In this document: in pieces, positions 1,781-43,054 of the stretch | Layout of the letters: the number at the start of each line of letters is the position of its first letter | Position numbering within the stretch: position 1 is the stretch's first letter | Origin: Cepaea nemoralis | Lineage: Eukaryota > Mollusca > Gastropoda > Stylommatophora > Helicidae | Assembly (NCBI GenBank): GCA_014155875.1 | Contig: JACEFZ010014526.1 | Location: 124,001 to 188,000 of the forward strand | Direction: 5' to 3' | DNA length: 64,000 bases | Translations under genes and position numbers: made by a program | Notes under the pieces: model-generated | Seen by the model: the letters and a program-made list of their open reading frames with translations, nothing else | The model's database searches: none | Told to the model about the DNA's origin: nothing

Positions 1781-2219
1781 CAACTTAGGACAAAGCTACA
1801 CCAGATCTCGGTACAAGAAAGAGCCTCTCCTTAAACGTTTATCTGCATATTTGGTTATAACTTGATCTAGTACGTATTAGGTTATAAGTTATTACAAACA
1901 TTGACTGGTTTTGACTTTATATTAATTGATAGTACTTAGCTGTATAGCTTTTATAATAATTCTAATTGTGTTTTCACGGTGAGTGAGGGGGTCTTCACTG
2001 CTCTTCCTTACGGATCTGTGTACGTATTTTTATATATTTACAGAGATATTACTGTTTCTCTGTACTTTAGAGTGTGTTTTTGTAATAAGGGACGTAAGTT
2101 GTATACACTTTGTGTGTGTGTGTTTTGCTTTTAAACTTGTGATTACGCATTGTTGAAATGTCTAATAAGTACGAATACTGGCTCAGGAATAATGGGCTCA
2201 GAATCGGGCATGTAAACAT

Positions 2220-4985
2220 ATGCCATCTATTAGGGAAGGCTGCCCGAACTATCACTTATACTTAATCAAAAATTTTCACATGTTTGGCGCTAGCGAAAGT
2301 CGATTAAATGGCAACATCTCAGATGATGACATCGCTATCAGAGGTTTTAAAACCATTAGAAGAGATCCCTATCAGAAACAAGAGACGGGTATTGCAGTTT
2401 ATATTTCCAACTCGCTTAACGCCCACCGCAGACTAGACTTTGAAACCTGTGAGATTGAGTGTGTATGGATAGAGGTTAAACTTCAAAATTGCATACCGCT
2501 AGTAGTTGGCTATCTTTATCGAAACCCCAGTGCAGGAAATATCTGGTATGAAAAATTCACCACTATGATGGATGTAGTCTTTAGTAATGCTAGGGAAATA
2601 ATATTGCTAGGTGACTTCAACATAGACGCTAACAAATCAAACAAAACATGGGAAAACATAATAGAGTCATATAATTTCCAACAGTTAGTCAAACAAGCCA
2701 CTAGAATCACTAAATCATCTGCAACACTTATAGATCATATTTATACTACGTGTGCTGATAACATCACAGAATGTAGTGTACCTATCAATGCAATGAGCGA
2801 TCACTATCCAGTATGTTGCACGTGGTCGAAAAGGGGCACCAAAACTCCCAAACACAAACATATAAGCATAAAATATAGAAATTACAAAAATTTCAATCGA
2901 GACGTCTTCTTACAAGATTTGGTCAACTCATCTCTAGATTATGTTTACCAGCTTCCTGACCCAGACGATGCTCTGGACCACTGGCTAAAGACCTTTCTAA
3001 GTATATTTGATAAACATGTTCCATTTAAGGAAGTTCGTGTTAAACATCACACAAAGCCCCCGTGGATCACACAGGAGGTAGTTGAACTTATGAGAGATCG
3101 CGACAGGGCTCACAAAAATAGAGATCTAACTATGTACCGTAGTCTGAGAAACAAAGTTCAATATGTTATTCGGAAGGAAAAGAAAAACTATTTTAAGAAC
3201 ATAGTAATAGATAAAACCAACACTAAAGATATATGGAAAGCAATTAATACCTTGACAAACAAACACAAATCATCACAATCATTACCATCAAATCAGGTTA
3301 CATGTGATCAATTCAGTAGATACTTTCAGTCCGACATAAACCAACTGAAGGCTGCAATACCAGATGCGCCTCATGACATATCTTTATTATCATCATTCTG
3401 TGAGAACAAATGCTATGGACACATTTCCTCCAACATACCGCTAATGACGACAACTGAAGTATTTACTCATCTCCGTAATCTAAAAAACAATAACTCATCA
3501 GGACTAGATGGAATTAGTAGTCGGATCCTTCGCCATGCTGCACCGGCGATCTGCGAGTCACTAACTTTTATATATAATCAATGTCTAACCAGAGGTCACT
3601 TCCCATCAGCCTTTAAAATCGCTAAAGTGTATCCTCGTTTAAAAGCTGGTCCTCTAGACGATCGTCTCATGAGTAATTATAGACCAATTTCCATATTATC
3701 CTCATTATCCAAACCGCTAGAAAAGCACATCCACAAAACAACACTAGATCACTTAGTTCGCCATAAATTGATAGTTGACAGTCAGTCAGGATTTCGGCCA
3801 AAATATTCTTGCCATACGGCACTAACAAACATGATAGAAAACTGGCATCAAAATATTAACAACAATACTCTATGTGGAGCGGTGTTTATAGACTTTAGGA
3901 AAGCATTCGATATGATAGATCATACTATTCTAATTAAAAAACTAAAAACAATGAAAGTAAGTTTTAATATAGTGACATTAATAAAATCATTCTTATTAGA
4001 CAGAAAGCAAGTAGTATCACACAATAAAGTTTTATCTCAAGCCATTACCACTAATATTGGAGTACCTCAGGGGTCTATTCTTGGCCCTCTATTATTTACC
4101 ATTTATATAAATGATCTTCCATTAAATCTGTCGTCGTCCTGCGATCTATTTGCTGATGACTGCACAGTATATACAAACGCTGTTGATCGTAATGTGCTAG
4201 AATTATCCTTGCAACAGGAAATAAATAGTGTAGTTAACTGGAGTCATGCAAACCGCATGCAAATTAACATTACTAAAACAAAGTCTATGTTAATAGGAAC
4301 CAGGCAAAGACTTCACACTCTAAACTCGCAGAGAACTCTTCAGCTGCACATTGGCAGCACGCCTGTAGAAAGTGTCACCGAGCACAAGACACTGGGTGTT
4401 ATCATAGATCAAAATCTAACTTTTAACTCACATGTTCATGCTCTAGTTAAACAAATAGCCAAAAAAGTATACCAACTTGCCAAAATTAAAAATTTCCTTG
4501 ACGAAAACACAAGAAAGATATTCTATACTTCTCATATACAAACACATATTGATTACTGCTCCACAGTCTGGGATGGATGCTCCAAATCAATAACAAGACG
4601 CCTATATTCACTCCAGAAAAGGGCAGTGCGTTTAATTAATGGTGAAAAGCTTACCGACAATTCTAACCTATATAAACGTCTCCGGTTACTGCCACTCCAC
4701 AAGCGCCTGCTTTTTAATAAGACCAAACTAATTCACAAAATCATATTTCAAAATGCTCCAAGCTACCTTTGGCCATTGTTTAAATATAACGCTAGACATA
4801 GCGAACGACTAAATATACTTCATGTCCCTAAACCTAGGATAGACTTATATAAAACAAGCTTAGCATACTCTGCCGCTCAGTTGTGGAACAATCTTCCACA
4901 AGAAATCAAAGACACCACCAATCATGATACATACATTCGCAACCTGTTTGAACACTACCTTAGTACAGACTACATGCCCCCATAA
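2220..4985 (+). CDS. LINE ORF2: endonuclease-reverse transcriptase
   Basis: This 921-codon frame encodes the nicking endonuclease and reverse transcriptase used for target-primed insertion. Endonuclease motifs are SESRL (25-29), GDFNID (131-136), a TLIDHIYT block (169-176) and SDHYPV (193-198). The RT domain shows SSGLDGI (426-432), NYRPISIL (486-493), SGFR (523-526), AVFIDFRKAFD (554-564), GVPQGSILGPLLF (614-626) and the catalytic FADD (644-647). The C-terminus has the YSAAQLWNNLP block common at the end of CR1/L2 ORF2s, and no RNase H follows. The true start is probably the ATG at 2158, whose frame begins MSNKYEYWLRNNGLRIGHVNI-like (family-typical) but is lost to a small indel near 2230. 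The RT core is intact, so decay is recent. Confidence 0.88.
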   Translation: MPSIREGCPNYHLYLIKNFHMFGASESRLNGNISDDDIAIRGFKTIRRDPYQKQETGIAVYISNSLNAHRRLDFETCEIECVWIEVKLQNCIPLVVGYLYRNPSAGNIWYEKFTTMMDVVFSNAREIILLGDFNIDANKSNKTWENIIESYNFQQLVKQATRITKSSATLIDHIYTTCADNITECSVPINAMSDHYPVCCTWSKRGTKTPKHKHISIKYRNYKNFNRDVFLQDLVNSSLDYVYQLPDPDDALDHWLKTFLSIFDKHVPFKEVRVKHHTKPPWITQEVVELMRDRDRAHKNRDLTMYRSLRNKVQYVIRKEKKNYFKNIVIDKTNTKDIWKAINTLTNKHKSSQSLPSNQVTCDQFSRYFQSDINQLKAAIPDAPHDISLLSSFCENKCYGHISSNIPLMTTTEVFTHLRNLKNNNSSGLDGISSRILRHAAPAICESLTFIYNQCLTRGHFPSAFKIAKVYPRLKAGPLDDRLMSNYRPISILSSLSKPLEKHIHKTTLDHLVRHKLIVDSQSGFRPKYSCHTALTNMIENWHQNINNNTLCGAVFIDFRKAFDMIDHTILIKKLKTMKVSFNIVTLIKSFLLDRKQVVSHNKVLSQAITTNIGVPQGSILGPLLFTIYINDLPLNLSSSCDLFADDCTVYTNAVDRNVLELSLQQEINSVVNWSHANRMQINITKTKSMLIGTRQRLHTLNSQRTLQLHIGSTPVESVTEHKTLGVIIDQNLTFNSHVHALVKQIAKKVYQLAKIKNFLDENTRKIFYTSHIQTHIDYCSTVWDGCSKSITRRLYSLQKRAVRLINGEKLTDNSNLYKRLRLLPLHKRLLFNKTKLIHKIIFQNAPSYLWPLFKYNARHSERLNILHVPKPRIDLYKTSLAYSAAQLWNNLPQEIKDTTNHDTYIRNLFEHYLSTDYMPP

Positions 4986-8560: not shown

Positions 8561-11500
8561 CTGCAGGGAAACAGATGGATAGCAGAATACATTACTGTTT
8601 CATATAGTTTGAATGGACGAAGAGAACCAAAAGCAGAATTTTTAACACTAATGGTAAATCCGTACAGGTGTATAGATTAGAATCACGGAGAACGACTAAA
8701 ACAATTATTTACAAACTATAAATATTAAATAACTGGTGCTTGTTCAGAATTTAACTAAAACGTGACAGAATCACTGAAGGCAACTAAGGGAGAGAACTAT
8801 AACAATTCCATACAATCATGAAGTGAGGGAAAGACGACAACTCTGCATAGGACACACATTGAGAAAACCTGTTAATAGCACAACTGGATGTCTTTTGTCT
8901 GAAACACGCAGGGTAAAATACATAATTGCGACCTAAAACCATTGCAAAAAAAAAAAATAATAATAAAAAAAAAAAAAAAAAGAATTAGAGCCACAGATGA
9001 ATAATATGGGAATGACTTATGGAGGAGTTGCATTAGATGGCAACTGATAAGACGTGCATAGCATGAGCTGGCATAGGGCACATAACCTCAAACCCACGTT
9101 GATCTTGCAGGTAACCAACCATTAGGCTAAGTTCAAAGTGTAGTAAATATCTGCACTTGATCTTGCTAGAGTCATGGGGTAGAGGCGGTCGTCCGAACAA
9201 CACACAGGGACGGTTGGGACCTGATGTGGCGTCTTTGGCCTCTGAGGAACCACGAACCCTTATATTACAAAAAGGGGAATTTTACGTTCTGTAGTTTGCC
9301 ATTGCTTTCTGAACCAGAAGTCAACGTTGACGTCCAGCTGACCGGCGTAGGGGTTGATCGCGCTATACCGTCGTTATCGCACTGGAAGTTTAAGAGCGAG
9401 GGGATCTTATCCTTTCGGCCACGCTGACTGCTTAAATATAGTAGAGGGAGACTTAGATACGAGAAATACTTACAGACCCGTATACAGGAGACTCTGATAC
9501 GAGAAATACTTGCAGACTCGTACTCATGAGACTTATATACGAGAAATACTTACAGGCTCGTACACAGGAGACTTAGATACGAGAAATACTTACAGACTCG
9601 TACACAAAGGGAACAGAATAGGGGTCAGGGATGAATAACATGGGCAGGACTTACGGTCATCTTTACAAAATGGATAAGAGTGCTAGCTCTTAAACTTCCG
9701 ATGTGCTGATGCCGAGGTAGTGGATTAAAATGCTGACTTGACTTGGGGGCGTAAATTACAAGTACCTCTGAAATCGGAGTGGGTTCACCTGATGGCGAGG
9801 GACACTGGTAATAGGGAAAGATAATCCACACGCAAATATAAATCCAGCGTGGACAACGCTAGAGTTCAAATAGAGCGGCCCCCCCCCCCCCCCCCCCCCC
9901 CCAAAAAAAAGGAAAAAAAAAAGAGGACATGGAGGAAACTAGCAGGAGACGGCAAAAGACTTCACGTGACTGGTTGAATGTCTGTATTACGTTTGGATAT
10001 AAAGGGCAGAAGAAGAAATACATCCATAGAATGTATATAAATATACTGGTTATTAACTGACGAAACGGGTTTTCAAAGAATGCTAATTTCAGATAGGAAA
10101 ACCAATGAGCAACCTTACAAGAAGCAAATGAAAACGGTAAACTGATTAGAGAAACTAGACGTATACAGTCAACATGTTTTAGGCACGTTATGAGAAGAAA
10201 TAAACTAGAGAACTTTGTGACTCCTGGCAATATTGCGGTGAAAAGAACACGGGGAAGGCACGAAGTAAATACCTGGATAGCCTTGCCACATGGCATGGTC
10301 GAGACAAGAAAATAGAGCTGATCCACGACTTTGGTATGAGATGGCGAAACATGGCCGCCTACCCTTATCAGCTTGGTGCATGATGAAGATAACTGAATGT
10401 TTTTAACGGCAGTGACAATAGAAGTGACTGCTGTTAAACTGACGTCAAAGGTTAATTAACATGAAATATGAGTGGGAAGCTCCACAAACGAAAGCCACAA
10501 ACAGATGCTAAAATGGACGTTTCCACAAAATTCTGTGCCGACAGAGACAATGGAAAACAAGAATACGTAGCTGGAAATAGAGATATCTTAGAAATGTCCT
10601 AGTTCATTCACAGATAGTTATTTCCCCCATCGCAGTCAGGCAGATGGGTAGGTAGATGAGTAGGTATGTGGGGTAGGTAGATAATGAAGTAGCCAAGTAA
10701 GCAGATAGACAGACAGCTAGGCTAGTTGCCAGATAAGTAGGCAAGCAGGTCGGTAGGTGAGTAGGTAGGTAGTTTGGGTGGAAAGGCGGGACGCAAGCAG
10801 ACATGCAGGCATGTAGATAGGTAGTTAGGGAGGAAGGCAGGTAGGTAGATAGTTTCTGGGTGGTTAAGCAGACAGGTAGATAGGCTAGTTCTAATCTAGG
10901 TAGGCAGATAGGTAGATAGGCAGTTAGGCAGTCAGGTAGATATTTTACAAGTAGCTAGGCAGACAGTAAGATAGACAGGCAGACAATTAGGTAGGCAGGT
11001 CAGTAGGAAGAAAGGCAAGCAGGCATGTAAATGCTAGTTTTAGGGTAGGTAGGTTGGCTTGCAAGCAGGTAGATAGGTAGGTAGGTAGGTAGGTAGGTAG
11101 GTAGGTAGGTAGGTAGGTAGGCAGGCAGGCAGACTGCAAGCAGGTATGAAGGTAGGCTGATATAAGCACATACCACTGAGAGCACTGTTGCCGGCCACTC
11201 CGCTGTTGATGGGGTTCTTGTTTTCTTGGTTGCCGTTCTTGCTGTTGTTGGCCGACTTCTTCAGCCGCGCTCTGTTGTTCTGGAACCAAACCTGCAGACG
11301 GGAGAGAATAATTGTGGCAACTGTATGACTCTGGTCTTTTCCGGCATAATCCACTTCCATCACCACAGTAACTCCCACCATCACCACAATCACCTCCATC
11401 ACCACCACAATCACTTTCACTATCACCACAACCACCTCCACTTTCACCACAATCACCTCCACTTTCACCTCAATCACTTCCGCCACCATTACCACCATCA

Positions 11501-12614
11501 TCACAATCGCCTTCACTATCATCACAACCACCTCTACTTTCACCAAAATCACTTCCGCCACCATTACCATTATCACCATCACCTCCTCCAACACCACCAC
11601 TATCACCACCACCATGATCATCAACATCTCCACCATTTAACCACCACCATAATCATCATCACAATCACCTCCACGTTCACCATCATCACCACCACAATCA
11701 CAACTACTATCATCGCTACCACTATCATCATTATTATCATAATCGCCACTATCACCACACCATCATCATCACCACCACAATCATCATCACTACAGTTAAC
11801 ACCACCACCACAACCACCACCATCACCACCACCACTAGCATCATCACTACTAATAATATTACCATAATTGCCATCACCATCATCATCACCACCACAGTCA
11901 ACACCACCGCCCCCCCCCCCCCAAATCACAATCACCACCACCATCATTTCCACCACCATAACTACCACCACCGATATCACCACAACCACCACAATCACCA
12001 CCATCATCATTACCACCACCACCATAATCACCACAATCATCACCACCTCAAAGATTTCATCGCCACAATCACCATCACAATAATCATCATCATCATCACA
12101 ATCTCCACAATCACCATCACAATCATTATCACCACAATCACCATCACAATCATCATCATCACAATCACTACCACCATCATCATCACCACCACAATCACCA
12201 CAATCACAACCATCATCATCACAATCACGACCACCACCATCAACACCACAATCACAACCACTACTACAATGACCATCGTGATGTTTGAGGAGAGAGAGAC
12301 AGAGATATCCCATTAAGTCAATGATTGTATGAAACCCATGCTATACATGCATATACCATCAGCTGGTTGGAAAGTATCCGGCTAATTGGCCGAAACTTAC
12401 CTGCACGACTCTCTTCTTCAGGTTGATGTGAGTGGCTATCTTTTCCAGCTCGTTGCCGTCCGGATTACTGTCTCGCAGGAAACGGTCCTGCAGGAACTTG
12501 ATCTGGGCCTCAGTGTAGGAGGTTCTGTTTCTTTTGGCTTTCTTTGGCGGCTGTTGTCCGTCTGAGGACAGTCAAGATTGTTGTTTTCACGAGTTATTGC
12601 ACAGTGGCATAACA

Positions 12615-13166: not shown

Positions 13167-14145
13167 AGAGAAAGTGTCACAGAGAGAAATTGAGAGAAAG
13201 AGTATGAGAGAGAGAAAGAGAAAGAGAGAGGGTCAGAAATAGAGAGTAAGAAAGAGAAAGTGAGATAGGGCGTGAGAGAGAGAAAGAGAGTGTGAGGGAG
13301 AGTGGTAGAGAGTGTGTGTTGGTAGCGGTTTGTAACATGTTCTTTTAAATGCACTCTATTGGTAGCGGTTTATAACATGTTCTGTTAACATGACTCTATT
13401 GGTGCGCGGTTTGTAACTTGTTCTTTTAAAACGCACTCTATTGGTAGCGGTTTGTAACATGTTCTCTTAACATGACTTATTGGTAGCGGTTCTAAAAGGT
13501 TCGTATAAACTGATCCCTGTGGTGGCCTGTTCGGACATATGTGTACAGAATAATGTGTTTGATTTAAAATTCATGTGTTAAACTTACCCGAATTCTCCCC
13601 ATTCACTATATAAAGATTGGTACAGTAAATATCTGTCAAGCTTTACCTGAACTCTCCTCATTCACTATATAATCATTTGTACAGTAAATATCTGTCAAGA
13701 CTTACATGAACTCGACCCCATTCACAATATAATGATTGGTACAGTAAATATCTGTCAAGACTTACATGAATTCTCCCCATTCCCTATATAATGATTGGTA
13801 CAGTAAATATCTGTCAAGACTTACATGAATTCTCCCCATTCCCTATATAATGACTGGTACAGTAAATATCTGTCAAGACTTACCTGAACTCTCCCCATTC
13901 ACCATGTCCCTGTAATGGTTGGTACAGTAAATGTCTGTTCCGTTGACCAAGTGGTATTTTTCATTATTGCCAAGTTGTCGTTTGCAGATCTGTAGACGAG
14001 AGAACGTTGTGCATCAGTAACCTTGTGTGGTTACAATATGTGTCACGTATACCTAAGTCTTTCCTGTATGCAACCAATAGTTATGTCATAACAAACACAC
14101 ACACACTCACTCTCTCTCTCTCACTCTCTCTCACCTCTCTCTCTC

Positions 14146-14192
<47 letters not shown>

Positions 14193-17100
14193 ATTGCACA
14201 TTTGATATCCATACATAATCTATATGTCTAGCTAATCTAATCGACCTGCCAGCCTATATATCCCTGCGCTGATCTATATAATCGATTCTCTCTGTCAACG
14301 TATCTATACATTAATCTAGGTAATCTAACCCTTCCGATTATCCAACCATATATTAATCTATACAATCTAATATGTCAGTCTACATATCCATATATTAATC
14401 TATATAATCTAATCCTTCAGAATATCCATCCATATATCCATCTATCTAATCTAATCCTTCAGATTATCCATCCATATATTAATCTATATAATCTTATTTA
14501 TTAGTCTATCCATTAATAAATTAATCTATGTAACCTAATCCGTCAGGCTATTTATCTATCTATCCATATATTAATCTATATAGCCTCTTCTATCAGTCTA
14601 TTTAATCATACATTAATCTATAAAATCTAATCCGCACCATCCATTCTTTCCCGTAATCGCGTCTTATAAGTTCCTTATACTCGTCTCCCCCCCCCCCCCT
14701 CATATTGTCCTGTTAACTGATGAAGTGCCATGGGATGACTAATCGGTTTAAGCAACTGTCCGTATCTGCCATGGGCTTATATACTGCAGTTTTCCCTATG
14801 CAACCCTCTTTGATTTGATATATAATACAACAGGTCTGCTACCATATTAACAACTTTCAGGTCATAATTGTGACACACCCCTACTTCCCATTTTCATCCA
14901 TCCATTTTTATTTTGTCAAAACCTGCTTTTTGTTTAGCACTGAATCTGTTAACCAATAACAAGTGAGCTGTAATCTACACAAGTCACGGAGCAAAACTCT
15001 AGTGCTTAAGAACTCACCTTGCAGAGAAAGCATGCAATGTGATATCGATGCTGTCCGGCCACGCGCATCCAGTCTTGCTCACGCTTGAACTGTAGGGAGC
15101 ACTTTACACAGGACAGGCCAAACAGACTGAAAGGTACGACAAGCAAAACAGACTGAAATACACGACAAGCGAAACACACAAACATGGAGCAAGCAAAACA
15201 GGCTGAAACATACGACAAGCCAAACTGCAAAACTGAGTGAAACACAGGAAAAGAAAAACTGCAAAAACAGACTGAAACACAGGACAAACAAAACAGACTG
15301 AAACACATGACAACAAAACAGACTGAAACACAGGACAAACAAAACAGACTGAAATACGGGAAAAGAAAAACTGACTGAACAATACGGGACAAAAAAAAAC
15401 AACAGACTAAAACACACGACAAACAAAACAGACTGAAACACGGGAAAGAAAAAGAGACTGAAACACAGTACAAACAAAACAGACAGAAACACGCGACAAA
15501 CAAAACAGACTGAAACACAGGACAAGAAAAACTGCAAACACAGACTGAAACACAGGACACACAAAACAGAATGAAACACAGGACAAACAAAATAGACTGA
15601 AACGTGGGGCAAACAAAACAGACTGAAACACAGGAAAACAAAACAGACTGAAACATAGGACAAACAAAACAGACTGAAACACACGACATGAAAAACAGAC
15701 TGAAACACACAATAACCAAAATAGACTGAAACACAGGACAAGACAACTGCAAAACAGACTGAAACACAGGAGAAGAAAAACAGACTGAAACACACGACGA
15801 AACAATACAACTGAAACACACGACAACCAAAACAAACTAAAACACAGGACAAACAAAACAGACTGAAACAGAGGACAAACAAAAGAGACTGAAACAGAGG
15901 ACAAAAACAAAACAGACAAACACAGGACAAGAAAAACTGCAAAAACAGACTGAAATACAGGACAAACAAAACAGACTGAAACACAGGACAAATAAAACAG
16001 GCTGAAACACACGACAAACAAAACAGACTGAAACACGGGACAAACAAAACAGACTGAAACAAACGACAAAACAAAACATACTAAAATACGGGAAAATAAA
16101 AACTGCAAAAACAGATTGAAACATAGGAGAAACAAAACAAACTCAAACACATGACAAACAAAACAGACTGAAACACAGGACAAGAAAAACTGCAAAGACT
16201 GAAACACAGGACAAACAAAACAGTCTGAAACACACGACAAATAAAGCAGACTGAAACGCAGGACAAACAAAACAGACTGAAATACGGGAAAAGAAAAACA
16301 GAATGAAAAATACGGGACAAAAAAAAAACAGACTAAAACACAATACAAACAAAACAGACTGAAACACGGGACAAACAAAACAGACTGAAATACGGTAAAG
16401 AAAAAGAGACTAAAACACAGTACAAACAAAATAGACAGAAACACGCGACAAACAAAACAGACTGAGACACAGACAAGAAAAACTGCAAACACAGACTGAA
16501 ACACAGGACAAACAAAACAGACTGAAACACAGGACAAACAAAACAGACTGAAACAAACGACAAACAAAACAGATTGAAATATGGGAAAAGAAAAACTGAT
16601 AAAACAGACTGAAAAATAGGAGAAACAAAACAGACTGAATCACACGACAAACAAAACAGACTAAAACACACGACAAACAAAATAGACTGAAACACGGGAA
16701 AAGAAAAACTAGAAAAAGAAAACAGACTGAAACACCGGACAAGAAAACCTGCAAAAACAGGCTGAAACGCAGGACAAACAAAACAGACTTGAAACACGGG
16801 ACAAACAAAACAGACTGAAACAAAGGACAAACAAAACAGACTGAAACACGGGACAAACAAATCAGACTGAAACACAGGAAAGCAAAACAGACTGAAACAT
16901 AGGACAAACAAAACACACTGATACACAGAACAAACAAAACAGACTGAAACACGGGACAAACAAAACAGACTGAAAAACATAATGCACATAACAGACTGAA
17001 ACACAGGACAAACAAAACAGACTGAAACACTGGACAAGAAAACCTGCAAAAACAGACTGAAACACGGGACAAACAAAACAGACTGAAACACGGGACAAAC

Positions 17101-19861
17101 AAAACAGACTGAAACACGGGACAAACAAAACAGACTGAAACACGGGACAAACAAAACAGACTGAAACATGGGACAAACAAACCAGACTAAAACATCGGAC
17201 AAGAAAACCTGCAAAAACAGACTGAAACACGGGACAAACAAAACAGACTGAAACAAGGGACAAACAAAACAGACTGAAACACGGGACAAACAAAACAGAC
17301 TGAAACATGGGACAAACAAACCAGACTAAAACACCGGACAAGAAAACCTGCAAAAAACAGACTGAAACACGACAAACAAAACAGACTGAAACACGGGACA
17401 ATCAAAACAGACTGAAACACACGACATGAAAAACAGACTGAAACACACAATAACCAAAACAGACTGAAACACAGGACAAGACAACTGCAAAACAGACTGA
17501 AACACAGGACAAGAAAAACAGACTGAAACACACGACGAAACAAAACAACTGAAACACACGACAACCAAAACAAACTAAAACACAGGACAAACAAAACAGA
17601 CTGAAACAGAGGACAAACAAAACAGACTGAAACAGAAGACAAACAAAACAGACTGAAACACAGGACAAGAAAAACTGCAAAAACAGACTGAAACACAGGA
17701 CAAACAAAACAGACTGAAACAGACAACAAACAAAACAGACTGAAATATGGGAAAAGAAAAACTGATAAAACAGACTGAAAAATAGGACAAACTGCAAAAA
17801 ACAGACTGAAACAGATGAAAAACAAAACAGTCTGAAACACAGGACAAGAAAAACTGTAAAAACAGACTGAAACACAGGACAAACAAAACAGACTGAAACA
17901 CACAGGACAAACAAAATAGACTCAACACAGGACAAACAAAACATACTGAAACACACGACAAACAAAACAGACTGAAATACGGGAAAAGAAAGACTAGAAG
18001 AAAAAACAACAGACTGAAACACAGGACAAACAAAACAGTCTGAAACACATGACAAACATAACGGACTAAAATACGGGAAAAGAAAAACAGACTGAAACAC
18101 AGGACAAACAAAACAGACTGAAACACACGACAAACAAAACAGACTGAAACACGCGACAAACAAAACAGACTGAAACAGACGACAAACAAAACAGACTTAA
18201 ACACAGGACAAGAAAAACAGATTCAAACAGAGGACGAATTAAACAGACTGAAACACACGACAAACAAAACAGACTGAAATACGTGAAAAGACAAACAGAC
18301 TGAAACACAGTACAAACAAAACAGTCTGAAACACAGGACAAACATAACAGACTGAAACACGCGACAAACAAAACAGCCTGAAACAAGGGAGAAACAAAAC
18401 AGACTGAAATACGGGAAATAAAAAACAGACTGAAACACAGGACAAGATACACAGACTGAAACATGGGACAAGATAAACTGCAAAACAGACTGAAACACGG
18501 GGCAATTAAAACAGACTGAAACAGCATTTTCAGGCCTGGTCAAAGAATGAGGATGTTACATATAGTCAATTAAATCATTAAGTATTAAGTAAATAATTCA
18601 TTTTTCGTTGATCATTTTCTTTGAAAAGATCAAAGGCCTATTTATTTTTAATCATTTAAAAAAACTCCTATGGTCCCATATAACTGCTACTTGTAAACAT
18701 TGTTTTATTGTCATATTTCATGGAAGCAAAATCAATCAAATACGGAGGTTCTAGAAAAACTGAAATTGAAAAGAGAGTTGATGAAATAAATAAAAAAAAA
18801 AGGTAAGTGAAATATTTCGGCCATATTAAAAGACAAAACACTCTTATAAAAATCAAACTGGAGGGTAAGGTTGAAGGCAAGCGAGCAAGAGGTACACAAT
18901 GATACAAGTGGGAAGATAACATCAAGAGATGGACGAACAACAATCTGACAGAATGTACAGTCAGAGCGAGAGACAAAAAGTGTTGGAGATCCATTGCAGC
19001 CAATCTTCGTGGAGACAATACCCGATTGATTGATTGATTGATTGATTGATCGACTGATTGATTGATTGATTGATTGATTGACAGATAGATAGATTGATTG
19101 ATTTATTGATTGACTGACTGACTGACTGATTGATTGATTGATGTTGTTAGTTTAACTATTTATTGTTTATTAGAGCTCGGTGACTGCACCATTCCATATG
19201 TAAAAGCTATGCTGTTCCATATCATATGTAGAAACAATGCTGTTCCATATGATATGTAAAAACTGTGCTGTTCCGTATAATATGTAACAACTGTTGTTCC
19301 ATATAATATGTAAAAACTGGTGTTTAACATCATATGTAAAAACTGTGCTGTTTGATTTCACACGAATAAACTATTCTGTTCCATTTAATTGTAAAAACTA
19401 TACTGTTGCAATTATTTTTCTTCACCTTCTTCGTACACCTTCAGATGTCAATATGAATTAGTCCAACTAAAACAGCAGCCAGCTTAAGCTTGTTGACGAC
19501 TCCTTAGAGTGTCCTCACATGGAACGGGTGTAGGCCAAAACAGTTGTCTATTCTACATACGCTGGACATTTCTGCAACAAATGTTCAGCTGTCATTTTAC
19601 CAGTCCCACAGTTACATAAATCAACATTTCCTGTCTTTACTTTATATGTAACCATGTGCTATTTCAGCCTGTTGTGTCATGTGCGTGGTCTGAAGATGGC
19701 TACTTGTTCCCTTTTGTCGAGTTGGGAATATGCTTCATCATTATGGCGCCCTGGATGCTTTGACTCCCAGTATCCCTATAACAGCTTCTTGTTTTCTGTT
19801 CTTGTGTTGTTGTTGTTTTTTTTTGCATTTTTTGTTTTGTTTTTTTGTTTTTATTCTTGCC

Positions 19862-21195: not shown

Positions 21196-23988
21196 TGTTC
21201 GCTCGCTATCAACCCAGGCGTAGTCCATCATACACGTGTTACTACTTCTGGTACACTGGAGTGATTTTTGCGTATGGATTAGCTTTCCCTATTACCAGTG
21301 TCCCTCGCCTTCACGTTAACCCACTCTGAATTCAGAGGAACTACAGAATTGTTTGGCTTTAGTCTTCACTTATCAAGACCTTAAACCACTGATACATAGG
21401 GTGGCCTGTCTATTATTCAATGACAGTGTTAAAGCTGTCCTCATTCTTATCTCCCTTATTTTAAATGTGAAATTACCGTTGGCTTAACAATTGCCCATTA
21501 TTGATCAATAAAAACATGTCAATTGCAACGAGACAAACAAGTGTTGAAATACTACACAGAGCATGTGCTTGTGAATGGATGTGAATCGTGGACAATAAGC
21601 ACAAGCTGAAAAATATCTAATGGCAGTGGAAATATGGGTTCTGGGAATTATGCAAATAATACCATGAACAAAAAGAAAAACCACTGAGCAAATCCCACAA
21701 GAAACAAACGAAACTCGAAAACTGATTAGAGAAAGTAGACGTAGGCAGTCACAATTTTCTGGGCATGTTATGAGAAGAAATAAACTGGAGAACTTGGTAA
21801 CAGCTGGCAAGATTGAGGGAAAAAAGAACAAGGGGAAAGCAGAGAGGTAAATAGATGGCTTGGCAATATGTCATAATGGAGACAAAAACATAGCTGATCC
21901 ACGACTTTGGTGATCGTGTGAGATTCTGTAACATGGCCCAAGTTTATCGTTACAACACATGATAATGACGACCGTTGTATGAATATGCAGCCTCAACAGA
22001 AAGCATACAATCAGAGAAATATCTAATGACAGTCGAAGTGTGGTTTCTGATGATAATTCAAATATTACCATGGACAGACATAATAACGAATGACCAAGTC
22101 CTTGAAAACAGATGAAAACAGTAAACTGGAAAGAAAAATTATACGTGGATAGTAAAGATTATACATGCACGTTATAATGAGATAAAAAATTGAAAACTCA
22201 GTGACAACTGGGAAACTAGATGGGGAAAGAGAAAGGGGAGACAAAGAGATAAATATCAGCGCGGCTTAGCCACGTGACATAATATGGCCAAGCTAATAGG
22301 CCTGGTCCAAGAGTCTGATGATGGTGTGAGATCGCGACCATGACCATTCACACCTGTCGACATGGCACATGATGATGATGATGATATCCTAAGCCTGGTT
22401 GTTAAGACTTGGGAAATAAGTAACATCTAATCATAACAGTAAATTACAACTCAGAAACACGCTGGACCAAATCTTTACATTATCTTATAGTTAAAACATT
22501 GACTTAATCATAGAATGACTTTCCGACTAAAGTCAACATCATAACTTTGATATTCACCATCATTCGCTGTCCGTGTTCCGGGACTGTCCCAAGTCTAATT
22601 TATGTCATATTCTCATAAAGTTTCACTATTGATTTTTTCCTCTTGCCAATGCCGCGTCGTCTAATTATCAAACTAGACCCAATAATTAGTGCTGCAGGGG
22701 CGTATCTGGTCAACCCAGCGGCCCGCAGACGGGAAACGGCAAAAGGAATTAGTCTGGGCAGGTTTCTAATTTACCGTGAGAGCCCAAGTATTTGACTGAG
22801 GACTCGGACAGCGCGATGAGAAAATCACAGGAAGCTTTTGTGTATGCTAAGTGAGGCTGAAGAAGCATTTCCAATTCATTAATACACGACTTTACTTTCC
22901 TCCGTTGTTTCTGCTTTTGTGTTGTGCTTTCATGTTGCTCAAAGGCTGGTACTAAAGACAAGAGTACAGAGGACTGGTAGACGGTTGTAGACAGAGCTTT
23001 GGTTTCCTGGTTTTAGATGGTTTCCGGACAGACAACAATTGATTATACTGATTAAATGGGAAAAGGTAGCAATGAAAGAAGAACAGGGTGGTTGGGGGGG
23101 GGGGGGGGGGGGTTGAAAAGGTAGAGAAAAGGTAGATCTAAGGCCAAAAAGAGGATGAGGAAGGAGAGGAGGGAATGATGAAGATAATGAGAACAAGGAA
23201 TAGAGAAGGAGAAGAGGAGGTTGAAGAAGAAGAGGAAACAGAAGTTAGCTGATGATGATGATGAGGAGGAGGAGGAGGAGGGGAGGAGGAGGAAAATTAA
23301 AAGGAGGAAATGAACAACAGGAGGAGAGTAGAATGAGGAGAAGGGGTAGACGGGAGACAAGTAGTTGGTGGAGGAGAAGAAGAAACAAAAGGAAGAGGAG
23401 GAGATGATAGAGAAGAAGGAGAAGAGGAAGACACAGAAGAGGCAGCACCAGCGGCTAGTGCTAAACCAGCTACAAAAGACGAAGACAATGTGAGAGAAAC
23501 AGAAATAACAGAAGACGAAACAAGATAATATATACGGAAATAAAACAACAAAAAGGATGAAGATAAGACAATGAGAGTAAGTCGATACAATGTGTTTGAT
23601 TATGACGTTAATACGGATGAACAAGTTATGATAATAATGATGATGATTTTTCTGCTGCTGTTACATATCATGATGATGAGGCGGAGGAGGAGGAGGAGGA
23701 GAGGGGAGGGAGAGGAGGAGGAGGGGGAGAGGAGAAGGGGGAAGACTTTTTTGGGGTGATAATGACACCAGAGATGAGTGAATCACAAACATAAAACAGT
23801 ACTCACATGTTGTAATCGTTCCGGCAGAACACCTGCTCGTTCTTGACGTAGCAAGACTTCTGGTCGCTGAGGTTGTCTTGACAGTTGCTGCACTTAAGAC
23901 AGTCCGCGTGCCAGAAGCCGTGATCCTTGACCTGGATCACGTAACGGTCAAATACGGGCTTCTGGCATCCGAAGCAGAGATGGGAGCT
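8301..23988 (-). CDS. Lhx6/8-like: LIM-homeobox transcription factor gene, six exons (partial)
   Basis: Six exons join into 312 residues with perfect phase agreement. LIM1 is C-x2-C-x18-H-x2-C-x2-C-x2-C-x18-C-x2-D. LIM2 is C-x2-C-x19-H-x2-C-x2-C-x2-C-x19-C-x2-H. A linker of about 20 residues follows, then a homeodomain with R5, L16, F20, L40, W48, F49, Q50, N51 and R53. LIM domains bind cofactors such as LDB, and the homeodomain binds TAAT-type DNA in the nucleus. The Asp-Trp in LIM2 (REQDWMRV), the terminal His ligand, the SCYVKN block in LIM1 and DSNPDG plus KRVVQVWFQN in the homeodomain point to the Lhx6/Lhx8/Arrowhead group. Substitutions such as the FKREQDW loop make it divergent, so it may be a lineage-specific paralogue. 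The first exon and the end of the C-terminus are not certain. Introns are full of satellites and transposons. Confidence 0.9.
8561..9446. repeat. Intron stretch with A-rich run and reversed SINE-B
   Basis: An A-rich run with TAATAATAA lies at 8945-8981. At about 9270-9430 there is a reversed copy of a tRNA-derived SINE, recognisable by 'tgccattgctttctgaacca' and the reversed head near 9340-9425. I see no exon in the remainder. Confidence 0.6.
9447..9606. repeat. 40-bp tandem repeat, four copies
   Basis: Four consecutive units share GAGACTTAGATACGAGAAAT followed by ACTTACAGACTCGTACACAG, with only a few substitutions between copies. Confidence 0.9.
9620..9902 (+). mobile_element. SINE-B copy (tRNA-headed) ending near a poly-C run
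   Basis: The sequence follows the copy at 53512-53770: a head with GGATAAGAG and CCGAGGTAG, then 'cttgggggcgtaaattacaa', 'cactggtaatagggaaag' and a 3' part near the C run at 9879-9902. The A-box-like and B-box-like segments in the head suggest descent from a tRNA gene. Similarity to the other copies was judged by eye. Confidence 0.7.
10140..10385 (+). pseudogene. LINE 3'-end fragment
   Basis: A broken frame resembles the C-terminal end of RTE-type RT proteins: a HVMRRNKLENFVT-like block, KRTRGRH, then a Trp-rich ending, and a GATGAAGAT tail. Related fragments lie at 21540, 21985, 38035 (reverse) and 50860. Confidence 0.7.
10610..11150. repeat. (TAGG)/(CAGA)-type tetranucleotide tract
   Basis: Degenerate GTAG, GCAG and ATAG tetramers extend for ~540 bp, with a pure GTAG run at about 11070-11120. 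The tract lies just downstream (minus strand) of the homeodomain exon. Confidence 0.92.
11174..11291 (-). CDS. LIM-homeobox exon encoding the recognition helix
   Basis: The acceptor is CCGTCTGCAG and the donor CTCAGTG|GTATGT; length is 118 nt. It encodes VWFQNNRARLKKSANN, the DNA-recognition helix of the homeodomain, then an Asn-rich low-complexity tail (SKNGNQENKN). The intron before it cuts the homeodomain between residues 46 and 47, a position used by many homeobox genes. Confidence 0.95.
11340..12290. repeat. CAC/CAT trinucleotide tract
   Basis: About 950 bp of CAC, CAT, CAA and ACC trinucleotides fill nearly the whole intron between the two homeodomain exons. His-rich (plus) and Asp/Val-rich (minus) frames across it are artefacts of composition. 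Confidence 0.95.
12401..12561 (-). CDS. LIM-homeobox exon encoding homeodomain helices 1 and 2
   Basis: The acceptor is TGTCCTCAG and the donor GTGCAG|GTAAGT; length is 161 nt, entering with two bases to finish an Asp codon and ending in phase 0. It encodes a basic stretch (PPKKAKRNR) that could act as nuclear localisation signal and N-terminal arm, then homeodomain residues 1-46. Blocks RTSYTEAQIKFL, RDSNPDGNELEKIA and KKRVVQ are visible. Confidence 0.95.
12618..13320. repeat. (GT)n followed by GA-rich tract
   Basis: A GT run (12618-12650) passes into GA-rich sequence, with a pure (GA)n core at about 13083-13164. It occupies the intron between the LIM2 and homeodomain exons. Confidence 0.95.
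13325..13500. repeat. 40-41 bp tandem repeat, about four copies
   Basis: Units begin TTGGTAGCGGTTTGTAACAT and continue with GTTCTTTTAAATGCACTCTA; later copies diverge. Confidence 0.88.
13575..13871 (-). repeat. 59-bp array copied from the LIM2 exon end and its splice donor
   Basis: Five units begin at about 13575, 13635, 13694, 13754 and 13813; the sixth position in register (13872) is the real exon 3 boundary. Read on the minus strand, each copy has a decayed version of the codons for DIYCTNHY through the exon end, then a donor-like GTAAGT (GTAAAG in one copy) and the first intron bases. Stops and substitutions mean the copies are not coding. Confidence 0.88.
13884..13989 (-). CDS. LIM-homeobox exon encoding the second half of LIM2
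   Basis: The acceptor is GTCTACAG|ATC and the donor TTCAG|GTAAGT; length is 106 nt, leaving one base. It encodes ICKRQLGNNEKYHL and DIYCTNHYRDMV, which hold the last zinc ligands (Cys, Cys, His) of LIM2, then the start of the linker. The 3' part of this exon, with its donor, is the template of the 59-bp array that follows in the intron. Confidence 0.92.
13990..14701. repeat. CT/CA microsatellite and TCTA-type degenerate array
   Basis: The part from 14097 to 14190 is (CA)n and (CT)n. From about 14210 to 14650, degenerate units built on CATATATTAATCTATATAAT recur every ~50-60 bp. A C run lies at about 14687-14698. No exon is seen. Confidence 0.8.
14702..14885 (-). mobile_element. Short interspersed element copy (unexpanded)
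   Basis: Minus-strand order is GTGTCACAATTATGACC, GTTAATATGGTAGCAGAC, TGTTGTATTATA, ATATAAGCCCATGGCAGATA, ATTAGTCATCCCATGGCAC and TCAGTTAACAG. The same blocks in the same order occur at 51940-52105 and flank the expanded array at 5690-8292. Confidence 0.75.
15018..15126 (-). CDS. LIM-homeobox exon encoding the first half of LIM2
   Basis: The acceptor is CTTTCAG|TCTG and the donor TGCAAG|GTGAGT; length is 109 nt. It encodes LFGLSCVKC (first zinc pair), REQDWMRV, and HIACFLCK (next ligands). The first ~20 bases plus the acceptor match the unit of the adjacent 26-bp array at 26 positions with three mismatches. The FG-x-x-C-x-x-C pattern is family-conserved, so the exon is the ancestral sequence and the array the derivative. 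Confidence 0.9.
15127..18522 (-). repeat. 26-bp satellite seeded by the exon 2 splice acceptor, about 130 units
   Basis: On the minus strand the unit is TTTCAGTCTGTTTTGTTTG plus TCCTGTG. It matches the exon 2 boundary TTTCAG|TCTGTTT...TGTCCTGTG over 26 positions with three differences. Some units are ~32 bp variants carrying CTTTTTGCAG-like insertions. Because 26 is not a multiple of three and the unit has few stops, long frames open in all three minus frames with a 26-residue Phe/Cys/Val-rich period. A segment near 15684-15960 recurs at about 17423-17700, showing higher-order duplication. Confidence 0.93.
18720..19143 (+). pseudogene. LINE 3'-end fragment with (GATT)n tail
   Basis: An open stretch reads like the end of an RTE-type RT protein (YFGHIKRQNTL, GKRARG, KWEDNIKRW, then WRSIAANLRGD). 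It is followed directly by a (TTGA/GATT)n tail at 19022-19143, as expected for a LINE 3' end with a microsatellite tail. Confidence 0.75.
19165..19410. repeat. 33-34 bp tandem repeat, about seven copies
   Basis: Units centre on GCTGTTCCATATCATATGTA followed by AAAACT and a short spacer, and become more divergent to the right. Confidence 0.85.
19440..20705 (-). pseudogene. Decayed LINE fragment with RNase H and C-terminal zinc-finger-like motif
   Basis: On the minus strand, 20255-20700 encodes RNase H-like blocks: AYIDGLANY at the start and VIQWIPPHYNISGDEVDGRL near the end (the usual His and Asp region). Further on (19440-19760), CNCGTGKMTAEHLLQKCPAY matches the Cys/His motif that follows RNase H in some LINEs. 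Stops and a SINE insertion (about 19855-20275) break it. Confidence 0.75.
19855..20275 (-). mobile_element. SINE-B insertion with internal duplication and 34-bp poly-G
   Basis: The reversed SINE-B body (GAGAAGTCAACA, GGGATTGAACC, GAATGTTTAA) occurs twice, at about 19965-20120 and 20140-20275. This indicates a ~160-bp tandem duplication. A G run lies at 19863-19896. It interrupts the RNase H LINE fragment. Confidence 0.7.
20744..20950 (+). mobile_element. tRNA-headed SINE
   Basis: The head has an A-box-like TGGCCGAGTGGCTAGAAC and a perfect B-box GGTTCGAATCC. It lacks a convincing full tRNA cloverleaf and is followed by a T run and an unrelated body, so I call it a SINE rather than a tRNA gene. 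The boundaries are approximate. Confidence 0.6.
21127..21350 (-). repeat. (TTG)n microsatellite joined to reversed SINE-B
   Basis: A pure GTT repeat (21127-21194) sits at the edge of a reversed SINE-B copy. The copy is recognised by TTAGCTTTCCCTATTACCAG and GTGTCCCTCGCC, and is like the copy at 47430-47605. Confidence 0.8.
21540..22385 (+). pseudogene. Two consecutive RTE-like LINE 3' fragments
   Basis: Two related stretches (about 21540-21965 and 21985-22385) each read, with stops, as the C-terminal end of an RTE-type protein: YGCES-like start, HVMRRNKLENLVT, GKKNKG, then DGLAICHNGD and GDRVRF-like blocks. The second ends in (GAT)n. They look like separate truncated insertions of one family. 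Confidence 0.7.
22386..23640. other. Intron sequence without a recognisable gene
   Basis: The first ~650 bp is unique-looking sequence with no supported exon. From about 23050 it becomes GA-rich, with a G run (23093-23112) and many GGA/GAA triplets. Confidence 0.6.
23641..23760. repeat. GGA-rich purine tract
   Basis: A dense GAG/GGA tract lies ~50 bp beyond the donor of the LIM1 exon. It encodes Arg/Glu-rich frames that are not considered genes. Confidence 0.85.
23807..23988 (-). CDS. LIM-homeobox exon encoding LIM1
   Basis: The acceptor is CCAACCACAG and the donor is AACAT|GTGAGT. The exon is 182 nt, starts in phase 0 and leaves two bases (AT). It encodes all eight zinc ligands of LIM1, from CFGC through CRND. 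The AT is completed by the T of the next exon to give Ile, followed by LFGLSC, matching the F-G-x-x-C spacing that leads into LIM2 in this family. Confidence 0.92.
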
Positions 23989-28553: not shown

Positions 28554-28842
28554 CTCCCCCGATGGTGTTTCCACCTTGTCGTGGTGGGGGAGCTTGAGTT
28601 TCTCAATGACCCTGAGAGCTATGCCGGCGGTAGCGTAGCTACCAGCAGGGCCTCCCAAGCCGGACAGGTCAAAGGGTAGAGAACAGACAAAGAGAAACAC
28701 CCTGGTCCTCCAGGTTGGGGGTTGAAGCGTGGGGTTAACATCCCCACCTTTGTAAAAACCTTTCTTTGTTACGAAACAAATACATGAGCCTCGATATCGG
28801 ACTGACTTATCTGGACAACGACCTTGGAACGTTAAAGGACTT
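28554..28842 (+). promoter_or_regulatory. Structured 5' leader of the RTE-like LINE
   Basis: At the very 5' end CTCCCCC (28554-28560) can pair with GGGGGAG (28586-28592), enclosing CCAC (28571-28574) paired with GTGG (28581-28584). A hairpin TTGAG/CTCAA (28594-28606) follows, then a perfect 6-bp hairpin GGTAGC/GCTACC near 28630-28645. The leader must contain internal promoter information for a LINE of this type. I could not find a P2-like strand, so a self-cleaving ribozyme is only a possibility. Confidence 0.5.
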
Positions 28843-31758
28843 TTGAGATTTGGAACATGGAATGTACGGACACTATATCAAGCTGGAGCGGCCGAAGAAC
28901 TAACCCGGGAGCTGGTTGAATATCAAATGGATATCACAGCAATTCAAGAAATAAGGTGGCCAGGAGAGGGTACTTTAGAGCAAAATGGAATGATTATAAT
29001 ATATGGAGGAAACACCCAAAATAAACATGAATTAGGAACAGGATTTGTCATCAAAAAAGAGTTATGGGGGAACATTTTAAACTTTAAAGCTTTTAATGAC
29101 AGGATTAGTAAATTACGAATAAAAGGTAAATGGAAAAATATAACGATGATTAATGTACATGCACCTACTGAAGAGAAAGAAGATGATATTAAAGAAGACT
29201 TTTATAATGATCTGGAAGATGTCATAGAAGAAACCCCCAAACAGGACATCCTGATTGTGCTGGGAGACTTCAATGCAAAAATAGGTAGAGAGCAAACTAA
29301 TAAAAAAGTGGCCGGTATGGAAAGCCTACATACAACTTCAAATGATAATGGATGGAGAGTCATCAACCTGGCAGAAGCCAAAGGACTGCAGATTAGCAGT
29401 ACCAGACTACAAAGAAAGGATATACACAAACAAACTTGGAAATCATGTGACAAGAGAACCTATAATCAAATAGATCACATTTTAATTAACAACAGAAATG
29501 CATCAAACATACAGCAAATCAGAAGTTATAGAGGAGCTGAGTGCCACAGTGACCATTTCCTCGTTGGAGCAAAATTTAAAATAAAACTTAAGAGAGCTTT
29601 CTATACTAAATTACAAAGATTACACCCAACATATAACAGAGAAAAACTACAAGACATTACAGTCAAAGAGAAATTTACAGATGAAATAAAATGTAAACTT
29701 GAAACTTTTCAAAACCCTTTGGAGGAAAGCGTTGACCAAACTTGGTTGAACATCAAGAATACAGTTCAATCTACCGCAGAAGAATGTCTCGGTGTGTCAA
29801 CCACGCATAGAAAGAACAGATGGTTCAATCAAAAATGTGAAGAAGCAGTCACTAAGAAGAAGAATGCCAGACATGTATGGTTAAATGACATCAATAACAT
29901 CCAAAAGGAAGAGCATTATAGAAGTGAATGTAAAGAGGCTACAAAAATAGTCAGACAGCAGAAGCGAGAATATATGAGTAATATAATCAAAGATATGGAA
30001 ACTAATCACCAGAAAAATGAATCCAGAAAGTTTTTTAAAGTACTGAAGTCAATGAAACGAGGGCACCAACAAAACACATATGGTTTAAAAGACAAAAATG
30101 GGAATATGATAAATACCAATGAAGAAATGTGCAACACATGGAAAGAATATTTTATTGAATTACTAAATTGTGAAGCTCCAAGTAACATTTTCCCACAGGA
30201 AGAGGTTCTAACATGCGAACCACAAATTGAAGAACCTACATTTGAAGAAATCCTATATGTAATCACACGACTTAAAAACAATAAGGCAACTGGGACTGAT
30301 GGAATTGCTGCTGAATTTATAAAGGCAGGTGGCCATGCATTACATCTAAAGCTATACGAACTAATAATAAAAATCTGGAGGACAGAAGAATTACCCCATG
30401 ACTGGAAAGAGTCATTATTGATACCTATCTTTAAGAAAGGAGACAAGTTCCAATGTGGAAATTATAGAGGAATATCACTACTGTCCACAAGCTATAAGAT
30501 ACTATCCGCAGTATTACTAAATAGACTAAAACCATATTCAGAAGACATATTAGGTGACTACCAGGCGGGTTTTAGACAAAACAGATCAACAATAGATCAG
30601 ATATTTATCTTACGACAAATAGCCGAGAAACATTGGGAATATAAAAGAGATCTCCATAACATTTTTGTGGATTTTAAAAAGGCTTATGATAGTGTCCATA
30701 GGAATAGTCTATGGAAAGTTATGCAGGAATTTGGAATACCAAGGAAGTTAATTAACATGACCAAACTATGCATGGAAGATACTTATAATATAGTAACATA
30801 TAAAGGCAGGAAATCAGACCCCTTCCAAATAACATCTGGCTTGAAACAGGGTGATGCACTATCGCCGCTACTCTTCAATCTGGCTCTAGAGAAAGTTGTA
30901 AGGAAGGTAAAGGAGGAATGTGATATTGGAGGAACATCCAGGCTGCTTGGTTATGCAGATGATATAGATATTATAGGGCAAAGTGAACAAAAGACATTAG
31001 AAATATTGACTCACTTAAAGGAAAAAGCCCAACAGATGGGGCTGGTTATCAACCAAGATAAGACAGAATATATGGTAATTTCAAGAGACGGAATGGCTAA
31101 AAACTCTGGCCACATACAAATAGATAATATGACCATTAAAAGAACGGAAACATACAAATACCTGGGTACAATCTTCAACTGCTCCAACATCATAAGGGAA
31201 GAAATACAAACTAGAATCAACTCTGGAAATAAGATATACTATGCACTACAACATCTACTAAAATCAAAGGCGCTATCTCGTAACACCAAAATCACAATAT
31301 ACAAAACACTGATCAGACCAGTTGTGCTGTATGGCTCTGAAACCTGGAGTACAACGAAAGGAGACGAAGCCTTGTTACAAACCTTTGAGAACAAAATTTT
31401 AAGACGCATCTTTGGACCCATTAGGGATACACAAAGTGGAGAGTGGAAAAGAAGAAGTAACAAAGACATTTATGATTTGTTTAAGTCCCCGCTAATCACT
31501 GGTATCATGAAGGCTAATAGACTACAATGGCTGGGGCATATAGAAAGAATGGAAGATAATAGGGAAACAAAACTCGCTTACACTCAGGAAATAAATGACC
31601 GTAGACCCCGAGGTAGACCAAGAAGGCGGTGGAGAGATAATATACATACAGACCTACAAGCACTTGGAATCAACGACTGGCAAGAGAAGGTCCACCAGAG
31701 AGACGAATGGAGACAGATTGTATTTGCAGCAAAGAACCTCAATGGCTCGGAATGCTGA
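28843..31758 (+). CDS. RTE-like LINE polyprotein: endonuclease-reverse transcriptase
   Basis: The uninterrupted 971-codon frame encodes the enzyme for target-primed reverse transcription. Endonuclease motifs: WNVRTL (6-11, Asn7), QE (35-36, Glu36), VHAP (105-108), GDFNAKIG (141-148), IDHIL (210-214) and SDHFLV (236-241). RT motifs: NKATGTDGI (480-488), NYRGISLL (540-547), AGFR (575-578), FVDFKKAYDS (608-617), LKQGDALSPLLF (667-678) and catalytic YADD (704-707). The C-terminal part has the YGSETW and LQWLGHIERM blocks and a basic RGRPRRRW stretch. There is no RNase H. All catalytic residues I can check are present, so the copy may be competent. The first Met (MRFGTWNVRT) directly precedes the endonuclease, as usual for this clade. 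Confidence 0.92.
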   Translation: MRFGTWNVRTLYQAGAAEELTRELVEYQMDITAIQEIRWPGEGTLEQNGMIIIYGGNTQNKHELGTGFVIKKELWGNILNFKAFNDRISKLRIKGKWKNITMINVHAPTEEKEDDIKEDFYNDLEDVIEETPKQDILIVLGDFNAKIGREQTNKKVAGMESLHTTSNDNGWRVINLAEAKGLQISSTRLQRKDIHKQTWKSCDKRTYNQIDHILINNRNASNIQQIRSYRGAECHSDHFLVGAKFKIKLKRAFYTKLQRLHPTYNREKLQDITVKEKFTDEIKCKLETFQNPLEESVDQTWLNIKNTVQSTAEECLGVSTTHRKNRWFNQKCEEAVTKKKNARHVWLNDINNIQKEEHYRSECKEATKIVRQQKREYMSNIIKDMETNHQKNESRKFFKVLKSMKRGHQQNTYGLKDKNGNMINTNEEMCNTWKEYFIELLNCEAPSNIFPQEEVLTCEPQIEEPTFEEILYVITRLKNNKATGTDGIAAEFIKAGGHALHLKLYELIIKIWRTEELPHDWKESLLIPIFKKGDKFQCGNYRGISLLSTSYKILSAVLLNRLKPYSEDILGDYQAGFRQNRSTIDQIFILRQIAEKHWEYKRDLHNIFVDFKKAYDSVHRNSLWKVMQEFGIPRKLINMTKLCMEDTYNIVTYKGRKSDPFQITSGLKQGDALSPLLFNLALEKVVRKVKEECDIGGTSRLLGYADDIDIIGQSEQKTLEILTHLKEKAQQMGLVINQDKTEYMVISRDGMAKNSGHIQIDNMTIKRTETYKYLGTIFNCSNIIREEIQTRINSGNKIYYALQHLLKSKALSRNTKITIYKTLIRPVVLYGSETWSTTKGDEALLQTFENKILRRIFGPIRDTQSGEWKRRSNKDIYDLFKSPLITGIMKANRLQWLGHIERMEDNRETKLAYTQEINDRRPRGRPRRRWRDNIHTDLQALGINDWQEKVHQRDEWRQIVFAAKNLNGSEC

Positions 31759-42933: not shown

Positions 42934-43054
42934 CCAATAGATGCAAGTCCTGGTCAGGGCGCACCACCTCACCGTCAGTGCATCGAACTTTAAACCTTGC
43001 TGGGCACTTGCATAACGTTGCGTTCAACCCCCAGTTGATATCTAGGTAATTTTA

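Follow-up and report, generated by a model that had tools for sequence, protein, structure and literature searches.

Tandem arrays derived from the splice boundaries of two adjacent exons in a LIM-homeobox gene of the gastropod Cepaea nemoralis

A LIM-homeobox gene of the mollusc Cepaea nemoralis raises the question of how an intron can come to contain more than one hundred near-copies of the acceptor that ends it, and of what these copies might mean for splicing. The gene lies on the minus strand of a 64,000-nt stretch of contig JACEFZ010014526.1 (hereafter the window, to which all plain coordinates refer), taken from a genome assembly of 3.47 Gb in 26,579 contigs. Five of its exons were read, corresponding to LIM1, to the first and second halves of LIM2 (LIM2a and LIM2b) and to two parts of the homeobox. 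The intron upstream of LIM2a contains a 3.4-kb array whose units each combine the end of this intron with a copy of the first 20 bases of the exon, and the intron downstream of LIM2b opens with a second, shorter array that repeats the donor boundary. The acceptor-side array would most plausibly represent a minisatellite that has grown passively from the exon boundary, the last copy of which still serves as the acceptor.

An earlier note, drawn from the sequence alone, had described a minus-strand array of about 3.4 kb composed of TTTCAG-headed units of about 26 bp. Its description agrees with the results of Tandem Repeats Finder, which reported periods of 26, 52 and 78 bp within 15264-18523 and a further 4.5 copies at 15112-15225 extending into the exon, and with those of a segmentation that recognised 123 intronic heads, or 125 units once two double units were split. 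The figure of about 130 units given previously becomes 125 by this count. Each unit is formed by TTTCAG and TCTGTTTTGTTTGTCCTGTG (consensus TTTCAGTCTGTTTTGTTTGTCCTGTG); 88 of the 125 are exactly 26 bp long and 10 are 35 bp long. Their heads display AG in 114 cases, YAG in 110 and the exact TTTCAG in 95, so that the announced “over a hundred acceptor-like TTTCAG sites” stands for YAG and is slightly high for the strict motif. The units are fairly homogeneous (mean of 90% to the consensus), being at the same time diverse and not exact copies, and larger blocks have been duplicated again within the array, such as 17745-17354 and 16007-15615 (393 bp, 93.9%).

The link between this array and the exon is provided by register and reading frame. 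The last in-register copy is the true intron end with the exon start: it is identical to the unit consensus at 23 of 26 sites, and the first 20 exon bases at 17 of 20, in keeping with the three differences counted in the earlier note. No 20-mer among 3 million drawn at random with the composition of the exon attained 17/20; with the composition of the array, the proportion that did so was 1.8e-5. The acceptor is backed by the frame, the phase-2 end of LIM1 (AAC AT) joining TTTCAG/T CTG TTT GGC (slashes mark splice sites) to give ...CRNDYNILFGLSC..., and this frame, together with the conservation of the protein, suggests that the acceptor at 15127 is still in use. The four exon-proximal units share with the exon a C at unit site 16, found in only 16 of the 121 distal units (p=5e-4, for a site chosen post hoc). 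The unit was not retrieved elsewhere in the window, the genome beyond the window and 48 other loci not having been searched; in these loci (271,613 bases), a match of at most 21 bases was found in one of the 48. The peptide encoded by the array had no match at E<=0.001 among 5962 candidate public proteins.

The second array, absent from the earlier note, lies in the same gene, just past the end of the following exon. The 3' end of LIM2b (GAGAGTTCAG/GTAAGTCTTGACAG) is followed by five copies that open the intron, starting in downward order at 13873, 13814, 13755, 13695 and 13636 (a spacing of 59-60 bp), each of them comprising the donor and, six bases excepted, the final 55 bases of the exon. 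All five have in common the 6-bp gap and the base changes relative to the exon, which suggests that they descend from a single founder copy. When the authentic donor is counted with them, the six donors read GTAAGT in five cases and GTAAAG in one, and read-through past the LIM2b donor meets a stop codon shortly after. Arrays and exons were compared on coding bases alone, because scores obtained with 60-bp flanks (50 LIM exons and the five window exons) reflect adjacency and not exon content; on this basis LIM2b scores 61 against the donor-side array, none of the 13,873 non-cognate pairings of array and exon exceeding 40.

Which of the exon and the acceptor-side array came first can be approached through related genes. 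In this genome, two paralogs, likewise LIM-homeobox genes (L014/L004 and L006/L001) and each with a homeobox match on its contig, were read on either side of the intron, which has the same position in them and the same phase 2. The sequence before it reads ...CRADFF AG/GT and ...CRSDFF AG/GT, and the sequence after it CCCTACAG/G CTG TAC GGT in L014/L004 and CCCACAG/G CGC TAC GGC in L006/L001; a third LIM exon (L005), of which the acceptor side only was read, starts with CATTTCAG/G CGG TTT GCA. No match to the unit was found in any of these three loci over the ~1.5 kb examined upstream of each acceptor. Since the position and phase of the intron are common to paralogs lacking the array, the exon boundary appears older than the array. 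In addition, an unnamed 71-aa product of Candidula unifasciata is identical to part of the LIM2a+LIM2b translation and thus keeps the LFG exon start, and the ISL1 and LMO4 PDB chains have LYG or LFG at this place. These comparisons support the direction from exon to array that had been proposed at the outset.

The occurrence of comparable arrays in the genome was considered through a survey of LIM domains, in which 68 matches were listed, 150 of 194 candidates were scored and 58 distinct LIM exons were covered by BLAST self-comparison. Applied to the window gene, the BLAST rule picks out LIM2a and LIM2b and leaves its three remaining exons unflagged; among the 58, it points to one boundary case outside the window, L018, a paxillin-like exon (C24473:148068-148199; closest PDB chain paxillin, E=5e-29). 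Three nearby upstream places match in part its acceptor or exon start (E 1e-5 to 4e-4), one of them inside and two beside a 97-bp x 13.8 array located between 148400 and 149733 (region C24473:148068-149848), and a permissive alignment to the array unit starts at the intron end and covers some 70-80 bases of the exon. Its coding bases score 20 against this array and 36 with permissive scoring (0.63% of non-cognate pairs), and equal or higher scores against the unit were obtained in 7 of 2000 shuffles and with 2 of 49 other LIM exons. L018 is regarded as a probable acceptor-side boundary array. The LIM1 exon of a LIM-homeobox paralog (L014) has a 37 bp x 5.1 array beginning at its donor (C25601:181938-182123), the first unit of which has the working donor and at most 2 exon bases, with a coding-only score of 13 (92 with flanks), and it does not qualify as exon-containing. 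L022 and L023 (C8429:38282-38452 and 41118-41288) are near-identical whole exons about 2.8 kb apart (~96% including flanks), likewise flagged by the BLAST rule but set aside as a recent exon duplication, and the candidate match of L040 proved intronic. As a background, when 400 stretches of the fetched loci were drawn at random, exon overlap being allowed, 136 had at least one local copy; the DNA of these loci is full of tandem repeats, from which the exons are mostly free.

We consider it probable that the acceptor-side array is a minisatellite that began at a splice boundary, in a genome rich in repeats, and grew passively, its last acceptor still working and the array itself being near-neutral. 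It would have started when a 26-bp segment covering both sides of the 3' splice site, with 6 intron and 20 exon bases, was duplicated in tandem. Ordinary slippage and unequal exchange could have extended the repeat to 3.4 kb within the intron and partially homogenised it, and the outermost (exon-edge) copy, placed under coding selection, would have remained the working acceptor. The first 20 bases of LIM2a hold 14 pyrimidines and the tract before the unit farthest from the exon is poor (7/16 pyrimidines), which suggests that the inner units owe their good tracts to the copying of exon starts. Each duplicated exon start would thus furnish the next AG with a ready polypyrimidine tract, and the duplication may have been harmless to splicing and tolerated. 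Neutrality, or something close to it, is the most likely condition of the array.

A role of the array in splicing, for which the earlier note had suggested acceptor competition or intron retention, is possible though improbable. With its roughly 110 units of polypyrimidine tract and YAG and its scarcity of branch points, the array could recruit U2AF unproductively and slow the removal of the intron, or occasional array acceptors could be used, in the manner of a decoy or poison exon. Consistent with this proposal are the YAG of 110 of the 125 units, a mean pyrimidine share of 0.75 over the 16 nt preceding the array AGs, the same as for the real acceptor, and the sparsity of YTNAY branch-point-like motifs (20 in 3391 array bases, or 5.9/kb, vs 113 in 5285 bases of the upstream intron, or 21.4/kb). 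Conversely, the array has 137 AGs besides the real acceptor, of which 88 shift the frame and 49 are in frame, 42 of the latter meeting a stop and 7 staying open, so that the use of 130 of the 137 would disrupt translation in frame. The A and G columns, conserved in 121 and 118 of the 125 units, are no better kept than the neighbouring T columns (115-122), and no extra constraint on the splice dinucleotide is therefore visible; a raised AG density was not found either, with 41/kb over 18700-15019 vs 65 and 111/kb in two neighbouring stretches. Moreover, RT-PCR (reverse transcription PCR) results on the comparable “mirages” of amphioxus, reported as leaving regular splicing undisturbed, speak against gross mis-splicing (PMC3087553). 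On balance, an action of the array on splicing seems unlikely. A related proposal is that of a self-supporting boundary minisatellite, in which the pyrimidine-rich exon start, by giving tracts and YAGs every 26 nt, would create renewable and interchangeable acceptors or a U2AF sink, moving the exon edge or tuning the removal of a LIM-homeobox intron, and which would recur in this gastropod genome; we give it little credence as well.

Some observations weigh against passive growth from the exon boundary. From one end of the array to the other, the likeness of the units to the exon shows no gradient (Spearman -0.02, p=0.81), which fits homogenisation and gives no support to ordered growth. When register is ignored, the LIM2a exon alone scores 27 against the array consensus with strict scoring and 30 with permissive scoring, values that 0.065% and 2.4% of non-cognate pairs respectively attain; only 20 bases being common to exon and unit, the case for their kinship depends on register and frame. 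Evidence of recurrence in other genes is weak, L018 being probable only and the L014 array almost devoid of exon. These same scores, together with the richness in T of both partners, could be invoked to treat the resemblance of the satellite to the pyrimidine-rich exon start as fortuitous, a reading made highly improbable by the rarity of the in-register agreement, even with the array composition, and by the second boundary array of the same gene. It could also be supposed that the array originated at another place or farther inside the intron and later overwrote the exon start, given that it is far longer than the matching part of the exon and that its units are fairly homogeneous; against this stand the boundary common to the paralogs, the LFG kept in Candidula with LYG or LFG in ISL1 and LMO4, and the confinement of the unit, within the window and the 48 loci searched, to the array itself apart from the short match in one locus, and we regard this reverse direction as very unlikely. 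Finally, an assembly error may have inflated or scrambled the length of the array, the assembly being of draft type with numerous contigs and one amphioxus mirage having been aberrantly assembled in a draft genome (PMC3087553); this is improbable in view of the diversity of the units, and an error of length would leave the existence of the array unaffected.

Table 1. Positions of the two boundary arrays and of the exons read in the LIM-homeobox gene of the Cepaea nemoralis window
Feature	Positions	Strand	Description
Acceptor-side array	15133..18521	minus	Read from 18521 to 15133, inside the intron upstream of LIM2a; 125 units of ~26 bp, each TTTCAG + 20-bp copy of the exon start
Last in-register copy (true intron end + exon start)	15107..15132	minus	TTTCAG/TCTGTTTGGCCTGTCCTGTG; acceptor AG 15128-15127; phase-2 join with the LIM1 exon
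Four exon-proximal units	15133..15242	minus	C at unit site 16, like the exon
Last YTNAY-like A upstream of the array	18540	minus	Motif match only
Second boundary array	13582..13883	minus	Five 59-60-bp copies of the LIM2b 3' end + donor; 6-bp gap vs the exon in all
LIM1 exon	23807..23988	minus	182 nt, ends in phase 2, AAC AT/GTGAGT
LIM2a (LIM2 first-half exon)	15018..15126	minus	109 nt, LFGLSCVKCSLQFKREQDWMRVAGQHRYHIACFLCK, donor AAG/GTGAGT
LIM2b (LIM2 second-half exon)	13884..13989	minus	Ends GAGAGTTCAG/GTAAGTCTT
Homeobox exon, part 1	12401..12561	minus	CCTCAG/...KKAKRNRTSYTE...KKRVVQ/GTAAGT
Homeobox exon, part 2	11180..11291	minus	CTGCAG/VWFQNNRARLKK...; 11180 is a limit of the reading only

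The five exons join in frame into a LIM-homeobox protein recognised by the Pfam LIM and homeodomain families, and the LIM2a exon DNA has a single match in the genome assembly. Two matches were returned by the protein search, a “LIM/homeobox protein Awh-like” of Elysia marginata (76% over 64%) and a homeodomain protein of Biomphalaria. The public gene models of Candidula and Elysia begin at or within LIM2a, that of Candidula from its first full codon, as though the intron before it had been difficult to cross, which is not evidence for an array in this species. Elsewhere in the window, two open frames of 930 and 1000 aa on the plus strand (2193-4985 and 28756-31758) resemble, as judged by eye, reverse transcriptases of non-LTR (non-long-terminal-repeat) retrotransposons, and an apparently very young 45-bp x 13 array (42352-42935, 98% match) is open in several frames.

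The statement of the earlier note that no family or system had been described in this way does not hold, as two papers on amphioxus mirages (PMC3087553, PMC3902484) describe arrays of the same kind, with human counterparts in a third (PMC2812944). In these sources, mirages are tandem repeats that span an intron-exon boundary, combining intron end and exon start or involving the other boundary (PMC3087553), and they undergo concerted evolution within the cluster from which the edges are excluded (PMC3087553, PMC3902484). First described in amphioxus, they occur there in Adh3 and in the globins BflGb6 and BflGb9 and were held to be possibly general in cephalochordates (PMC3087553), a later paper presenting Adh, TnC, globin and, in an imperfect form, PGBD5 cases (PMC3902484). 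The snail array displays four traits of a mirage. Its units associate 6 intron and 20 exon bases of one boundary, the splice dinucleotide is retained in most of them (AG in 114 and YAG in 110 of the 125), and the authentic boundary (15132-15107) adjoins and continues the array. The edge copy also appears to stand outside homogenisation, since the exon differs at three sites from the acceptor-side consensus and lacks the 6-bp gap of the donor-side copies. From its sequence, we identify the array as a very large acceptor-side mirage, accompanied by a donor-side mirage at the next exon.

It differs from the amphioxus cases by its mollusc host, by the second array found past the following exon and by its size, the haplotypes of BflGb6 having 3 and 6 units of 150-160 bp, compared with 125 units of 26 bp; the units of the Adh3 mirage range from 10 to 72 bp (PMC3087553). 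The internal tandem repeats of human genes are likewise minisatellites of ~30-bp units, some of them at exon-intron boundaries; they differ in having about 4 units on average, in occurring in recent paralogs and in being reported to generate novel introns and alternative splicing (PMC2812944). With more than 100 near-identical acceptors, the snail array offers a natural test of the choice made by the spliceosome among them, and of the proposed route from boundary duplications to new introns or exon extensions. The human 6-16 (IFI6) gene is said to contain a minisatellite with multiple splice donors, reportedly in Nucleic Acids Research in 1995; its units would carry a splice site like those of the snail, but as donors, provided in the transcript if the title is followed. 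No report of mirages in a mollusc was found in the literature searched by title and abstract start, most subscription papers lying outside its reach, and the phylum is probably new for them. Two clear mirages at adjacent exons, one of 125 units, together with the probable one in another gene, would extend the mirages of amphioxus to a second phylum.

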